Below are positions 13,654 to 19,996 of a stretch of 55,287 bases of DNA, piece by piece. The notes beneath the pieces are model-generated. The model had not been told where the DNA came from and searched no databases. It was given only the letters and a program-made list of their open reading frames with translations. Made by a program: the position numbers and the translations under genes. This stretch comes from Eubacterium sp. (GTDB lineage Bacteria; Bacillota; Clostridia; Lachnospirales; Lachnospiraceae), in NCBI GenBank assembly GCA_017938215.1, contig JAGBBZ010000016.1, forward strand, positions 1 through 55,287, written 5' to 3'. Positions within the stretch are counted from its first letter, which is position 1. Each line of letters starts with the position of its first letter.

Positions 13654-13740
13654 ATTTACTATAAAGTTTCATTTCCTCTCTTCCGATATACAATACGAAC
13701 GACACTACTAACCTCGAATCATAAAGAAAGGAGGATGACT

Positions 13741-13830
13741 ATGACCCATTATCAAATTTTTCACACAAACACATATTTCGCAAGAAACACACAGTCTGGT
13801 TGTCCTTCTAATGATCGAGGTCTGATCTAG
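13741..13830 (+). CDS. Possible 29-residue leader peptide upstream of rtcB
   Basis: ATG 13741 has a near-ideal AAGGAGG seven bases upstream and a 29-codon frame ending in TAG. The peptide starts MTHYQIFHTNTYF. It lies 45 bases before a hairpin with a T-run that precedes rtcB. A second short frame (13843-13887, MTHKKRMDFLMAPV) begins with the same nine bases ATGACCCAT and ends inside the hairpin loop. I recognise neither peptide. A translated leader before a terminator suggests attenuation. Confidence 0.45.
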   Translation: MTHYQIFHTNTYFARNTQSGCPSNDRGLI

Positions 13831-13875
13831 AATTTTATTCCCATGACCCATAAAAAGAGAATGGATTTCCTGATG

Positions 13876-13897
13876 GCACCTGTGTAGGGTGCTTTTT
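13876..13897 (+). terminator. Terminator/attenuator hairpin before rtcB
   Basis: GCACC (13876-13880) pairs with GGTGC (13888-13892) around a 7-nt loop, followed directly by five T. It ends the leader segment 38 bases before the rtcB start. Confidence 0.55.
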
Positions 13898-13935: not shown

Positions 13936-15072
13936 ATGAACACACAAATTATAAGTGGAAACTACGCTTCGGCGACTATTTTTACAACCGATAATGAAAA
14001 AACTGCTTTGGAGGAGTATGCCCGCAAGCAGATTCAGATGCTGTGCGATAACCCAGTAGCAGCGAGGAGCAAGATTCGTGTCATGCCAGATGTGCATCCG
14101 GGAAAGGTGGGTACCATCGGACTTACCATGACTATTGGCACCCAAATTCTCCCGAATCTGGTGGGAGTTGACATGGGCTGTGGCATGACATTGGCATCCA
14201 TCCAAGGCAAGAAAATGGAGATGCAAAAACTGGACCGCATCGTCCAGACCAAGGTTCCGGCAGGGAGTGAAGTCCGCAAGGAAGCACATCATCTAGCAAA
14301 TGAGATGGATCTGTCGGAACTCCGTTGCGCCCATGCCATCCAAAAGGAAAAAGCCCTTTGTAGCCTCGGCACTCTCGGTGGTGGCAACCATTTTATCGAA
14401 GTAGACCAGGATGACTCCGGCGTATTTTATCTGGTGATTCACTCCGGCAGTCGACATCTGGGCGTGGAAGTGACTGAATATTATCTGCGAGAGGGGCAGA
14501 AACATTTGAAAGCGCAGGGCAACGATGTCCCTTATGAGCTAACCTATCTGGAAGGAGAGTTGATGTCAGATTATCTTCATGATCTGCAGATTGCTCAGGA
14601 CTATGCGGCACTTAACCGCGAGATTATGATTCGGGAAATCACAAAGGGCATGAAGTGGAAAATATCTCACATGGAACATTGCATCCACAACTACGTGGAT
14701 TTCTCTGGAGAAGTACCGCTTCTGCGAAAAGGCGCCATTGCTGCCGCCGCTGACACACCTGTCATTATCCCCATCAACATGCGGGATGGCATTTTGCTTG
14801 GCACCGGACTTGGCAACGAGGAATGGAATTGCTCTGCTCCTCATGGCGCCGGGCGAATCTATAAACGGGAAGATGTAAAGTCCCACTTCACCGTCTCTGC
14901 TTTCAAGTCTGAGATGAAAGGGATTTACACGTCTTGCATCAGCAAGGATACCCTGGACGAGGCGCCATTTGCTTATCGCCCTTTGGAAGAAATCCAGGAG
15001 GCTATTTCAGAAACGGTACACATCAATCGGGTACTTCGCCCCATTTACAATTATAAAGCGGGAAAACGCTAG
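13936..15072 (+). CDS. rtcB: RtcB-family RNA ligase
   Basis: A 378-residue protein of the short bacterial RtcB type. RtcB joins RNA 2',3'-cyclic phosphate or 3'-phosphate ends to 5'-OH ends using GTP and Mn2+, for RNA repair. Motifs seen are IRVMPDVHPGKVGTIG, VGVDMGCGMT (metal Cys), LGGGNHFIEV, VIHSGSRHLG and SAPHGAGRIYKR with the guanylylated His region. ATG 13936 has GGAGATTACGT before it; an in-frame ATG at 13900 lacks this. A small Cys-rich gene lies 28 bases downstream with its own AGGAGG, probably co-transcribed. Confidence 0.93.
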   Translation: MNTQIISGNYASATIFTTDNEKTALEEYARKQIQMLCDNPVAARSKIRVMPDVHPGKVGTIGLTMTIGTQILPNLVGVDMGCGMTLASIQGKKMEMQKLDRIVQTKVPAGSEVRKEAHHLANEMDLSELRCAHAIQKEKALCSLGTLGGGNHFIEVDQDDSGVFYLVIHSGSRHLGVEVTEYYLREGQKHLKAQGNDVPYELTYLEGELMSDYLHDLQIAQDYAALNREIMIREITKGMKWKISHMEHCIHNYVDFSGEVPLLRKGAIAAAADTPVIIPINMRDGILLGTGLGNEEWNCSAPHGAGRIYKREDVKSHFTVSAFKSEMKGIYTSCISKDTLDEAPFAYRPLEEIQEAISETVHINRVLRPIYNYKAGKR

Positions 15073-15100
15073 ACGTTTGCATGAATAGGAGGAATGAATC

Positions 15101-15293
15101 ATGGCAAAATATCGAGAGACACCATGTAAGTTTTACGTGGCACATGGCAACTGCAAGAAGGGCCGAAAGGCCATCCACAAGACCTACTGCCAGCACTGCG
15201 ACAAATATTGTCCACGTGCAAAGATCCGACACATTAATAAGAAGAAAGCTTACAACGAAAAAAGGAGCTTGCGTGAGCAAGCTCCTTTTTTTT
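15101..15293 (+). CDS. Small Cys-rich basic protein whose frame enters the terminator without a stop
   Basis: ATG 15101 has AGGAGG upstream and follows rtcB by 28 bases. The first 60 residues are basic and Cys-rich (TPCKFYVAHGNC, YCQHCDKYCPRAK, RHINKKKAYNEK), with Cys at 9, 18, 30, 33 and 37, so a zinc-binding fold is likely. No stop codon occurs before the strong terminator at 15258-15293, which encodes RSLREQAPFF in frame. The frame formally continues to 15682 antisense to the next gene, but termination should give a non-stop mRNA. Rescue-factor genes such as arfA and brfA show this layout. A lost stop codon is the alternative. Confidence 0.65.
15258..15293. terminator. Strong bidirectional terminator inside the end of the small gene
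   Basis: GGAGCTTGC (15264-15272) and GCAAGCTCC (15277-15285) form a perfect stem with a GTGA loop. It is extended by AAA/TTT pairs and followed by eight T. On the minus strand it also ends the LRR protein gene at 15299. Confidence 0.93.
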
Positions 15294-15298
15294 ATGAA

Positions 15299-16447
15299 TT
15301 ACCAGGTCTTTACCGGCTTCACTTTCACGTATTTATAAGTTGTCTTCCACTTCGTCTTCTTCGTGGTAGTAAGCAGCTGGTACTTAACCTTCTTTGTTTT
15401 CTTTCCGTACACTTCGTAAACGGTTGGTGCATTTTTTGTGCTTTTCTTCCACTTCTTTTTCTTTTCCTTATACTGGAAAGAAGTCACAGTGGTTTTCGCC
15501 TTTTTCCACTTGTGTACAAAGTTTTTCTTTTGCTTTTTGCTTGTTACTTTCGTTACCGCCTCTATCTTTTTGACATGGTAGGTAACTTTCTCTTTCTTTG
15601 CAAAAGAAATGGCTTTTGCTTTGTCTACAGTGTAGATTTCTCCGAAGGTGACAGTTCCTTGGAGTTGTCCCCCATTATATAAACGATTTGCTTCTACTTT
15701 GGTATTTTTTCCATTTACGTAAACCTTTTCAGCCCTACAATCGCCGTAAACTTCGTTAAAAGCGAGTTCCTTCAAATTAACTGGAGCGATTACTTCTTTT
15801 GCTGTAACATAAAACCATCCCGCAGCCACATTAATGGTTGATACACTGTTTGGAGTTATCGTTATCTTTTGAATCACTCCGTCGAAAAGGTCATCTGCAT
15901 GAATATGGCATCCAATCTCTACCGTATTAATATCAATAGGAAGGGAATTATCTTCGAACGAAGCATTCACAGGCAAAACAATGTCATCCCAATTGCTGCA
16001 TCCTACAAAACTTCCACTATGAAGATAGATTCCTTCTGGCAAAACCACATTTCGCAATTTTAGACAATCCAGAAATGCATGCTCATAAACTCTTTTTACC
16101 GAAGATGGAATTATCAACTCTTCTACTGTATTTCGGATTCCTTCCATTGCATTAGGAATTTCTCCTGCAATATCACCCTCGTACTCCTCTTTTGCATCAC
16201 CCAGCGCATACACTTGGTATCCATCCAGCTCCGTGGGAATCACAATCCGACCCTCGGTTGACTCGATATTACAAAGTGTTATCTGTTTTTCCTGCTGGTT
16301 CACAATCTGATATGTATAGATTCCTGATTTGTGATAAGGATATGCCTTTTCTAATCCTTCATCCGTAAATGGTAGTGGTAGCATCAGTGCCAAACATAGA
16401 ATCATTGCCATAAATTTTTGTTGCATCAAACTTTGAATTATTAACAT
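15299..16447 (-). CDS. Secreted BspA-like leucine-rich repeat protein (twin 1)
   Basis: A 382-residue exported protein. A signal peptide of about 28 residues starts MLIIQSLMQQ. Next come LRR_5-type BspA repeats (VEELIIPSSVKRVYEHAFLD, LRNVVLPEGIYL). The C-terminal 120 residues are rich in Lys, Thr and Val (KKQKKNFVHKWKKAK, ending KVKPVKTW) and may bind the cell surface. ATG 16447 has GGGAGGG upstream. It is 157 bases downstream of a near-copy at 16605-17750 and probably belongs to the subtilase operon. It may be an adhesin or a substrate or partner of the protease. Confidence 0.85.
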   Translation of the reverse strand: MLIIQSLMQQKFMAMILCLALMLPLPFTDEGLEKAYPYHKSGIYTYQIVNQQEKQITLCNIESTEGRIVIPTELDGYQVYALGDAKEEYEGDIAGEIPNAMEGIRNTVEELIIPSSVKRVYEHAFLDCLKLRNVVLPEGIYLHSGSFVGCSNWDDIVLPVNASFEDNSLPIDINTVEIGCHIHADDLFDGVIQKITITPNSVSTINVAAGWFYVTAKEVIAPVNLKELAFNEVYGDCRAEKVYVNGKNTKVEANRLYNGGQLQGTVTFGEIYTVDKAKAISFAKKEKVTYHVKKIEAVTKVTSKKQKKNFVHKWKKAKTTVTSFQYKEKKKKWKKSTKNAPTVYEVYGKKTKKVKYQLLTTTKKTKWKTTYKYVKVKPVKTW

Positions 16448-16536
16448 AATGGAACCCTCCCATGTATTTTCAACTTGAATACATCGTATCAATTGGATGT
16501 GTCAAAAACATTGTAATTGTTTACATCGTACATATT

Positions 16537-16604: not shown

Positions 16605-17750
16605 TTACCAGGTCTTTACCGGCTTCACTTTCACGTATTTATAAGTTGTCTTCCACTTCGTCTTCTTCGTGGTAGTAAGCAGCTGGTACTTACCCTTCTT
16701 TGTTTTCTTTCCGTACACTTCGTAAACGGTTGGTGCATTTTTTGTGCTTTTCTTCCACTTCTTTTTCTTTGCCTTATACTGGAAAGAAGTCACAGTGGTT
16801 TTCGCCTTTTTCCACTTGTGTACAAAGTTTTTCTTTTGCTTTTTGCTTGTTACTTTCGTTACCGCCACTATCTTTTTGACATGGTAGGTAACTTTCTCTT
16901 TCTTTGCGAAAGAAATGGCTTTTGCTTTGTCTACGGTGTAGATTTCTCCGAAGGTGACAGTTCCGAGACGCCGACCCCCATACAGACGATTCGCTTCTAC
17001 TTTGGTATTTTTTCCATTTACGTAAACTTTTTCAACTCTGCAATCGCCGTAAACATCGTTAAAAGCGAGTTCTTTCAAATTAACTGGAGCGATTACTTCT
17101 TTTGCTGTAACAAAAACCCAACCCGAAGCTACATCCATATTTGATAGACAATTTGGAGTTATAATTATCTTCTGGATTACACCTTTGAAGAGGCTTTCTG
17201 ATACTATTCTTGCCCCTATTTCTAGTGTAGTTATATCTCCCACAGGAAGCGAGTCGTCCTCATAGTGTGTATTAGCCGGTAAGACAATATGATCCCAATT
17301 GCTGCATCCTACAAAACTTCCACTATGAAGATATATTCCTTCTGGCAAAACCACATTTTGTAATTTCATACAATCCAGAAATGCGTGCTCATATACTCTT
17401 TTTACCGAAGATGGAATTACCAACTCTTCTACTGTATTTCGGATCCCTTCCATTGCATTAGGAATTTCTCCTGCAATATCACCCTCGTACTCCTCTTTTG
17501 CGTCACCCAACGCATACACTTGGTATCCATCCACCTCCGTGGGAATCACAATCCGACTCTCGGTTGACTCGATATTACAAAGTGTTATCTGCTTTTCCTG
17601 CTCGTTCACAATCTGATATGTATAGATTCCTGATTTGTGATAAGGATATGCCTTTTCTAATTCTGCTTCATTGATGGATGGTAGCATCAGTGCCAAACAT
17701 AGAATCATTGCCATAAATTTTTGTTGCATCAAACTTTGAATTATTAACAT
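16605..17750 (-). CDS. Secreted BspA-like leucine-rich repeat protein (twin 2)
   Basis: A 381-residue protein very similar to twin 1 at both ends: same signal peptide, same first LRR block and almost the same lysine-rich end. Residues about 190-230 differ strongly (TLEIGARIVSESLFKGVIQ here, VEIGCHIHADDLFDGVIQ in twin 1). ATG 17750 overlaps the end of the protease gene by seven bases and has GGAGGG upstream, so it is translationally coupled to the protease. The two genes are a recent tandem duplication. The surface-exposed middle seems to be diverging. Confidence 0.85.
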   Translation of the reverse strand: MLIIQSLMQQKFMAMILCLALMLPSINEAELEKAYPYHKSGIYTYQIVNEQEKQITLCNIESTESRIVIPTEVDGYQVYALGDAKEEYEGDIAGEIPNAMEGIRNTVEELVIPSSVKRVYEHAFLDCMKLQNVVLPEGIYLHSGSFVGCSNWDHIVLPANTHYEDDSLPVGDITTLEIGARIVSESLFKGVIQKIIITPNCLSNMDVASGWVFVTAKEVIAPVNLKELAFNDVYGDCRVEKVYVNGKNTKVEANRLYGGRRLGTVTFGEIYTVDKAKAISFAKKEKVTYHVKKIVAVTKVTSKKQKKNFVHKWKKAKTTVTSFQYKAKKKKWKKSTKNAPTVYEVYGKKTKKGKYQLLTTTKKTKWKTTYKYVKVKPVKTW

Positions 17751-19996
17751 AATGGAACCCTCCCAACTGCATAAAAATATCCTGTATGCGCACTATTTGT
17801 GCCAGTATCTCCTCGCATACGGTCAATATAAGAACCCACAAACCAACGTGCTGTATCTATTCGATCCCCCCAAAAATAAGGGTTATCCTCATAAGCTCTA
17901 GCCGATTTTTCTTTCTCAAACGTATACGTCTGTCCATTACATGTTATCGTAATGGTTTTTGTCGTCATATACTGCTTTAATTCATTCATAGACAACTCTC
18001 CCGCCTTAACCAGTCCGTAAACTTTCCAATATGTATCCCATGTGCTTGGTACACCGTCTAGATTTCCCAGGTTAATTCGACTTTCCTCCCGACTGGCAAC
18101 AAAATGATCGTATGGATAATATATCGTTCCATCAGGTTTTGCATACATCATATCCACACTTACTTGCGCACGATGGGCCTGAATATCTGCTACTAGATGC
18201 AAAAACACACCAAGTACCATGTATCCTTTACTTTGAATCGTATTCATATTAATTGAGTTATTTTGACAATCTATCTTCAATTGTTCATGAACGGTTTTCA
18301 AATCCACTATGATTCTACGTTTCATTTTTCTCCCGATATACACGCCATAATAGTAATCCCCGTTATAATTTGTCGCCACCAAATCCAGATTACTGTTTAG
18401 AATCAAACGTCTTCTCGCCAATTCATACAAAAATTGCAAGTGCTCCATTGTTACTTCTGTTAATGTATGATGTGCATTGGCATGATATGGTGGATAACAG
18501 TGTCCCCCCATTGTACTATCTACCTCACCCACAGCATTTCGATTATATTTCGCCAATTTGCTTGAAGCACTAAGGTACGGTAATTTGTCTGTCTGATACG
18601 ATGCCCTCGCTGTAATCCATCGATTATATGTCCTTTGGGTATCACTCTCATTCCCTTTTCCAAAATACGATAAAGGTAGATTATTAATAATCGTAAAATG
18701 CCCTGTATTATCAATTTTCTTCCAATCTCTAGCATTCCACGACCCTTCTACAATAGAATCTTCATCCGACGCCTTCTCTTCAGCGATGACCTGAATCTCT
18801 TTCGCTTTGATCGGGCTAGCACCCTTCTTCTTCATTTGGTTAATAGCATTTTCATAATTTACAAGGTTTGTTCCATTTTCCAGTACAATGGCCGATGATT
18901 CCAGCAAAGAGCGTAATTCTGTACTCTTCATGGACTTTTTAGCACTCATTACTGCTGCTGCAACTCCTGTTACATGTGCTGCCGCGATGCTCGTTCCTTC
19001 TGTTTTTGTAAAAGTTCCCAAATATCCGATTGTCTGTACGTCTTCTCCGGGAGCCACCAAGTCCACTTCGGAATTAGCACTAAAGTCAGAGTTCACTAAT
19101 TTCTCATTAATGCTTCCAACTGAAATCACTTCCGGATACCGTGCCGGATACTGGATTGTTTGCTGATTATTTCCCGCAGAAGCAATCATTAAGATATCCT
19201 GTTGTTCTGCCTTCTTAATAACATCATGCAGAATCTCAGAATACTCATTGGTCCCAAAACTCATACTGATAATATCAATATCATTTTGAATACACCACTC
19301 TAGTGCTTTCACCACTGCACTTATGGATGCTTTATTTTCGGAATCTAATATCTTCACAGAATAAATTTCCGCCTTTTCTGCGATTCCTTCCATTCCCAGG
19401 CCGTTAATCCGAGCTGCGATAACACCTGCCATCTGAGTTCCATGACCACTACTGTCAATCGGTTTATAACCATCTACCTTGTCCGAGAAATCCACCCAAT
19501 CTTTTGTATTCAATTCATCGTGTGTGTCAATTCCGGAATCAATGACCGCAACCTTTACCCCTTTTCCTTTGTACTTATTTTCATGTGGGGTTCCAGCCAC
19601 ACAGGCGATATTCCACGACACCACTTCATTTTTCTTCTTCGGATCATTTATTGCCTTGCAAGGCTTGAACTTTTTAGGATTATCTGTGTGTTCTCCTTTT
19701 TGATGCTCTGGCAAATCCGGTTCCACGGCTACGCATTTTGTAGCTTCACACGCTTGAAGTTCGATATCCTTTTCTACAAGAACCTCTTCATCCTTTAACT
19801 CTTTTGCCTCATCTGCCGTCATTTCTGCTGTAACACTTTGATTCTCATAAAGCAAGTTATCATCTGATTTCTTATGTCGGCTTACAAGCTTTCCCTGTTG
19901 TTTTAGTTCAGCCTTCATGTCACCGAACTCGTCCTCATTTTTTACATGAACAACATAGTTATGCAAAGTATCGTCGTCCTCTGTCTGCTTCACCAT
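17744..19996 (-). CDS. Subtilisin-like serine protease (S8), signal peptide in another frame
   Basis: At least 750 residues. Residues about 1-130 resemble an inhibitor-type propeptide. The S8 domain follows with VIDSGID (Asp), SSGHGTQMAG (His), SAGNNQ (oxyanion) and EGTSIAAAHVTG (Ser). The last 350 residues are a domain I do not recognise, with His-rich stretches (CYPPYHANAHHTL, FLHLVADIQAHRAQV). It should be secreted, yet this frame starts at ATG 19996 without a signal peptide. The signal peptide is encoded just upstream in another frame (19990-20124). The protease frame is also open about 65 bases further upstream, so a single-base indel probably separates the two. Export is lost unless this is a sequence error or programmed frameshifting. 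Confidence 0.85.
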   Translation of the reverse strand: MVKQTEDDDTLHNYVVHVKNEDEFGDMKAELKQQGKLVSRHKKSDDNLLYENQSVTAEMTADEAKELKDEEVLVEKDIELQACEATKCVAVEPDLPEHQKGEHTDNPKKFKPCKAINDPKKKNEVVSWNIACVAGTPHENKYKGKGVKVAVIDSGIDTHDELNTKDWVDFSDKVDGYKPIDSSGHGTQMAGVIAARINGLGMEGIAEKAEIYSVKILDSENKASISAVVKALEWCIQNDIDIISMSFGTNEYSEILHDVIKKAEQQDILMIASAGNNQQTIQYPARYPEVISVGSINEKLVNSDFSANSEVDLVAPGEDVQTIGYLGTFTKTEGTSIAAAHVTGVAAAVMSAKKSMKSTELRSLLESSAIVLENGTNLVNYENAINQMKKKGASPIKAKEIQVIAEEKASDEDSIVEGSWNARDWKKIDNTGHFTIINNLPLSYFGKGNESDTQRTYNRWITARASYQTDKLPYLSASSKLAKYNRNAVGEVDSTMGGHCYPPYHANAHHTLTEVTMEHLQFLYELARRRLILNSNLDLVATNYNGDYYYGVYIGRKMKRRIIVDLKTVHEQLKIDCQNNSINMNTIQSKGYMVLGVFLHLVADIQAHRAQVSVDMMYAKPDGTIYYPYDHFVASREESRINLGNLDGVPSTWDTYWKVYGLVKAGELSMNELKQYMTTKTITITCNGQTYTFEKEKSARAYEDNPYFWGDRIDTARWFVGSYIDRMRGDTGTNSAHTGYFYAVGRVPLC

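Follow-up and report, generated by a model that had tools for sequence, protein, structure and literature searches.

Introduction

Genes for two alternative ribosome-rescue factors, arfA of Escherichia coli and brfA of Bacillus subtilis, carry a terminator inside the reading frame, from which stop-less transcripts are expected, and encode small basic products. In arfA this non-stop layout is conserved. The brfA gene is described as having 71 codons with an internal terminator, and a product of about 62 residues (PMC6881298).

A second set of systems joins an RtcB-family RNA ligase to PrfH. The RtcB2-PrfH operon (E. coli ATCC25922; Baranov 2006; Burroughs and Aravind 2019) is reported, for E. 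coli, to repair 16S rRNA after its cleavage by colicin E3 (PMC9223846), and the additions described for RFH-RtcB systems include a protein that has a positively charged helix at its C-terminus and one or two zinc ribbons (PMC6514570). In Pseudomonas aeruginosa, the PA5471.1 leader of armZ-PA5470(prfH), a leader ORF with downstream terminators ahead of an RtcB-like gene beside prfH, reportedly relieves termination once ribosome function is impaired; the same source states that attenuation at PA5471.1 needs confirmation (PMC12057347). Ribosome-mediated transcription attenuators such as vmlR are likewise described as combining a short ORF, mutually exclusive hairpins and a terminator, in the control of drug resistance or amino-acid synthesis.

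The locus described here lies in a 55,287 nt stretch of DNA from a Eubacterium sp. (Lachnospiraceae; contig JAGBBZ010000016.1), referred to as the window. It carries an rtcB gene followed by a small gene that has no stop codon ahead of a strong hairpin. A reading of the sequence alone had proposed that the small gene is a non-stop rescue factor of the arfA/brfA kind. Comparison with relatives points to a probable local loss of the stop codon, and directs attention to the RNA leader that precedes rtcB.

Results

Gene content of the rtcB operon

The rtcB gene (13936..15072, plus strand) encodes a 378 aa protein of the RNA ligase family (Pfam RtcB, E = 2.1e-57, 195.7 bits against a cut-off of 27), which scores below the NCBIfam cut-offs of the PrfH-linked families PRK09588 and release_rtcB. 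The window thus has an RtcB-family ligase gene like the RtcB2-PrfH operon, but differs from it in that no prfH lies beside rtcB; behind the small gene, prfH and MoxR/vWA genes are absent. PrfH was not found in the assembly of the same genome, which is 68% complete; the one weak match to a release factor covers residues 84-179 at 40%, in a 373-codon frame, and a prfH gene may lie in the missing part. The genome carries a second, more distant RtcB (G000:C29:535-1707), with 45-48% identity to the RtcB of the window, and RtcB proteins of 57-61% identity occur in three genomes of the same genus.

Homologues of the small gene were collected from 31 loci, on contigs labelled mainly Lachnospiraceae and other Clostridia. 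An rtcB gene lies within the flank of 17 of these, several of the flanks being short. The fullest arrangement is at locus L002, with rtcB, the small gene, pieces of MoxR and vWA genes, and prfH; its PrfH, the only prfH copy scanned, belongs to TIGR03072 (NCBIfam, 193.2 bits against a cut-off of 166.65). At L004 the small gene is followed by a MoxR-type AAA gene and a DUF2201/vWA gene, an order also seen by eye at L013, while at L007 the small gene stands ahead of rtcB. A PrfH-like frame directly follows RtcB in two of the three same-genus genomes with an RtcB of 57-61% identity, L039 and L040, and is split in two in the third, L041. The sequence-only reading had linked a rescue factor to RtcB, and this part finds support in the RtcB/PrfH company kept by the relatives; the link to ribosome rescue comes from the content of the operon and not from the missing stop codon, and the non-stop device itself did not hold up (see below).

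Five small-gene relatives of a MATDRQTPC type (L027-L031) have neither rtcB nor the leader in the flanks examined, and their neighbours look, by eye, like those of mobile elements. Locus L121, read on the minus strand, has a more distant small Cys-rich ORF that is immediately flanked by a terminator-like hairpin upstream and an rtcB gene downstream.

A leader RNA precedes rtcB

A leader with three regions lies upstream of rtcB (13719-13897). Regions 1 and 2, comprising an AAGGAGG Shine-Dalgarno sequence at 13728 and its pairing partner, occupy 13719..13808 on the plus strand and match covariance model R1 with 56.2 bits, the window leader being itself one of the 26 training rows of that model. 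A leader ORF of 29 codons plus stop (13741..13830, plus strand) spans region 2 (13787..13807, plus strand), which can pair with either region 1 or region 3. Region 3 and the intrinsic terminator before rtcB lie at 13853..13897 on the plus strand (stem 13875-13893, followed by T), as located by terminator scan and folding; region 3 includes the terminator's 5′ arm.

In relatives, the corresponding leader lies upstream of rtcB, or of whichever gene is first in the operon, and consists of GAAAGGAGGACAAT-ATG, an ORF of 23-33 codons, and a terminator, with a common segment, AGAGGTCTGATTGTCC, near the end of the ORF. The Shine-Dalgarno sequence and the start codon are among the best-conserved columns. 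In 39 leaders the ORF always spans region 2 and its stop falls 8-36 nt behind it, while region 2 is not always read in the same frame (32, 6 and 1 leaders in the three frames). Since region 2 is read in several frames, translation as such, and not the peptide, seems to matter.

A search of 397 genomes of the family with R1 gave a single match in each of 21 genomes, all directly before the operon, at rtcB in 17 cases (broken in L083 and L088) and at MoxR in four. Among 30 RtcB loci, 16 have the leader before rtcB at E 0.001 or better, a further five have weaker matches in that position (E between 0.003 and 1.3), and nine show no match there even at E 5. Outside the family, 391 genomes drawn from the class yielded the genome of the window itself and one false match, inside an ABC transporter gene. 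No Rfam family matched the leader of the window at gathering scores, and ten leader loci scanned at E 1 gave two weak matches, both away from the leader. The literature matches listed include no earlier description of this leader, the closest precedent being that of Pseudomonas.

Alternative pairings of the leader

The 26 leaders were aligned over regions 1 and 2. They had been chosen for their Shine-Dalgarno sequence, the length of the ORF and a pairing of 7 or more, so the evidence for the pairing of regions 1 and 2 (1:2) is biased by the selection; region 3 had no role in it. A helix of nine pairs between regions 1 and 2 is paired in 91.9% of cells, and five of its pairs are changed on both sides, in 15 such cells, whereas slid versions of the helix reach at most 46.6%. 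On four of five covariation measures none of 500 shuffles was as high, and on the remaining one, further pair types, 15 of 500 were.

The preference of each region for its own partner was compared in 30 leaders. These were left from 40 after omitting one without the region 2 motif, six without a terminator, two that repeated the region 2 of another, and L093, removed manually because the terminator called for it lies just 19 nt behind region 2; region 2 or a terminator was thus not found in seven of the 40. Pairing 1:2 averaged −15.2 kcal/mol with the leader's own partner against −12.1 kcal/mol with swapped partners, and the pairing of regions 2 and 3 (2:3) averaged −18.8 against −13.5 kcal/mol (0 of 5000 permutations in each case). 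The control pairing of regions 1 and 3 showed no preference for the own partner (4774 of 5000).

Six RtcB loci with weak model matches served as hold-outs. A terminator is present in five and none was found in L122. For 2:3, the own pairing beats all 33 foreign partners in three and 32 of 33 in one, and L116 shows no preference, with 17 of 33 foreign partners as good. For 1:2, the own pairing beats all in two hold-outs, and in the rest 3 to 6 of the 33 foreign partners do as well. The 2:3 pairing of the window is the weakest of the 30 (−9.8 kcal/mol). The leaders have two features of a ribosome-mediated attenuator, a leader ORF with a Shine-Dalgarno sequence ahead of a terminator, and mutually exclusive pairings with covariation, one of the five hold-outs with a terminator failing on the latter and the window being weak in 2:3.

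The small gene and its in-frame hairpin

The small gene begins at ATG 15101 on the plus strand, preceded by an AGGAGG ribosome-binding site (15087..15092, plus strand). The part common to relatives comprises 56 codons (15101..15268), and the frame continues without an in-frame stop for 193 codons, to 15682. A hairpin with a T-run (15260..15293; hairpin 15260-15289, T-run to 15293) lies inside the frame at codons 54-63. Its stem is perfect, and as RNA it folds at −24.7 kcal/mol (z = −7.7, none of 200 shuffles as good). The good ribosome-binding site, the absence of a stop before a perfect hairpin within the frame, and the basic product with five Cys (at 9, 18, 30, 33 and 37) noted in the earlier reading are all borne out. 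By a calculation of ours, around one in two random frames would stay open over the 12 or so codons between the hairpin and the end of the T-run, which makes the missing stop less striking than the hairpin.

A simple consensus scan for terminators gave seven matches and the hairpin was not among them; we think this is because the A-T pairs of the stem use up the T-run. An origin from a dispersed or shared terminator repeat was ruled out, as the hairpin core occurs once in the 1.84 Mb assembly.

In an alignment of 37 rows of the small protein, H26, C18, C30 and C33 are invariant and C9 nearly so, a pattern that points to a zinc-ribbon-like protein. The conserved core is encoded entirely ahead of the hairpin. 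No Pfam family, ArfA included, scored above its cut-off, the sole match up to E 1 being CDC24_OB3 (0.34), and nothing scored above cut-off in NCBIfam or PADLOC, with the L008 relative used in part of these scans. No chain fell below E 0.038 in a search of PDB profiles; the best match, ribosomal protein eS26 at that value, was not taken as evidence. An AlphaFold model (mean pLDDT 73.4, pTM 0.43; the other four models 55.6-64.5) shows strands followed by a helix at 47-60, and is too weak to build on. By description, the protein fits the zinc-ribbon addition reported for RFH-RtcB systems (PMC6514570).

Stop codons of the homologues

All 31 homologues end in an ordinary stop codon, after residue 57-65 in 30 of them; the other (L026) is a fragment at a contig edge. 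The stop lies ahead of the best candidate hairpin in 18, inside a weak hairpin in one (L021) and behind a hairpin in none, and no hairpin with a T-run was found in the remaining 12. Only L009 has a strong hairpin right after the stop. Within the 397 genomes of the family, the gene is present in 17, that of the window included, at 19 places, 17 of which were re-examined (all except the window locus and L075). At all 18 places other than the window the frame is closed, at 52-100 codons; in the window it runs for 194. Among the loci surveyed, the lack of a stop before an intrinsic terminator is confined to the window, and the proposed arfA/brfA-like device loses its main footing: its layout occurs in none of the 31 homologues and none of the 18 other places, and homologues with normal stops, which the sequence-only reading had named as its refutation, are what is seen. 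The alternative that the same reading had allowed, a lost stop codon, is favoured, probably as local damage, given that the relatives have the stop.

The small gene was found in none of 36 same-genus and none of 24 same-order genomes, and with the gene absent from these 60 closer relatives, the stop-less layout is not visible in near kin. The stop-less frame is known from a single assembly; it may or may not be fixed in the species, and an assembly error may lie behind it.

A duplicated convergent gene abuts the hairpin

Beyond the T-run, the open frame runs antisense to a Lys-rich gene on the minus strand (15299-16492), a BspA-type LRR gene that is a tandem duplicate of 16605-17750 (90.4% identity over 1170 aligned bases). 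The duplicated stretch begins at 15297, 4 nt past the T-run, and the convergent gene has its stop codon 5 nt past the T-run. On the minus strand, the hairpin (−22.3 kcal/mol) follows the stop of the convergent gene and is in turn followed by a T-run. It is a two-way terminator between two gene ends and, being bidirectional, need not belong to the small gene. Both LRR genes (minus strand) have Lys-rich C-terminal ends, and the pair adjoins a gene for a 750 aa subtilase-family protein (Pfam Peptidase_S8; 17744-19996, minus strand) whose C-terminal part is long.

Discussion

The reading that best joins these observations, and which we consider probable, places the small gene, coding for a zinc-ribbon-like protein, second after rtcB in an RNA-repair operon that begins with the leader; its stop would have been lost locally at the junction with the duplicate, as damage, and control more likely resides in the leader. 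The stop would have been lost in one lineage where the duplicated convergent gene now abuts, leaving the shared two-way terminator at codon 54. With prfH and the MoxR/vWA genes missing behind the small gene, the weakest antiterminator and a recent duplicate at a new junction, the simplest account would be an operon that is losing its tail. The weakest 2:3 pairing is what would be expected of an operon in decay, and decay would be incomplete, as RtcB is full-length and the leader still recognisable.

Most transcripts of the small gene would then end without a stop. A tmRNA is present in the genome (150.3 bits against a cut-off of 47, and also found by ARAGORN), and the product of such transcripts should be tagged by it and degraded. 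A working product would still be possible, because the conserved core is encoded before the hairpin, as in BrfA.

A simpler lesion was considered, in which a small indel near the gene end, real or an assembly error, shifted the frame past the stop with no larger rearrangement. Six consecutive A where the hairpin begins offer a site for it, and changing the length by one base closed the frame early in one of two trials and not in the other; however, a stop within a few codons in one of two alternative frames is often due to chance, and the edge of the duplicate a few nt away is a sufficient cause, which makes an indel unlikely.

For the leader, the anatomy suggests how switching could work. With no ribosome loaded, 1:2 would form, the terminator would form and the operon would be off. 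With free translation, the ribosome would cover region 2 and the terminator would again form. A ribosome stuck near the start would cover region 1, letting 2:3 form and block the terminator, so that the operon would be on. This agrees with what is reported for PA5471.1, to which the leader is likened by description and not by sequence. The operon of the relatives differs from that of Pseudomonas in adding the small Cys-rich gene and MoxR/vWA, with the leader preceding whichever gene is first; compared with attenuators such as vmlR as described, the leader would control RNA repair and not drug resistance or amino-acid synthesis. Since a similar leader is reported for armZ-prfH, the leader type is already known, and the Lachnospiraceae form is a new variant.

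As to the signal, it may tentatively be suggested, though we hold it at somewhat less than an even call, that the leader is a sensor of ribosome damage: ribosomes that load at the near-perfect Shine-Dalgarno sequence but do not elongate, for example because their 16S rRNA is cut, would stay on the leader start, leave region 2 to the antiterminator and switch on the operon that repairs or clears them. The genes induced would be those for RtcB, the zinc-ribbon-like protein, MoxR/vWA and PrfH, and the system would correspond, in Gram-positive bacteria, to the armZ-prfH leader of Pseudomonas, with an RNA architecture of its own. The pairings by themselves do not name the signal, and a small molecule or a protein of the operon could take the place of the translating ribosome. 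We regard this as rather improbable, because the Shine-Dalgarno sequence and start codon are so well conserved, because the ORF always covers region 2 and ends shortly behind it in a variable frame, and because the Pseudomonas leader reportedly senses stalled ribosomes (PMC12057347).

Least of all does a true brfA-kind gene survive, one whose product tmRNA destroys unless trans-translation is overloaded: the in-frame hairpin with its T-run, the good ribosome-binding site, the core completed before the hairpin, the tmRNA of the genome and the proportions of brfA itself would suit it, but the layout recurs in no homologue or other place, the hairpin is common to the convergent gene, the sequence is unrelated to ArfA and BrfA at the sensitivity used (no Pfam family, ArfA included, above cut-off), and the protein is Cys-rich, has invariant residues that point to a zinc ribbon and sits in an RtcB operon, all of which make it very improbable. 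The new stop-less layout may since have become useful.

If, as in the preferred reading, the missing stop is a local lesion, the stop-less gene by itself teaches little. The leader matters more, offering a testable control mechanism for RNA repair of the RtcB-PrfH type in gut Lachnospiraceae. It ties a small unannotated Cys-rich family and the MoxR/vWA pair to ribosome repair, and suggests that sensing of stalled ribosomes arose before such operons in both Pseudomonas and Firmicutes.
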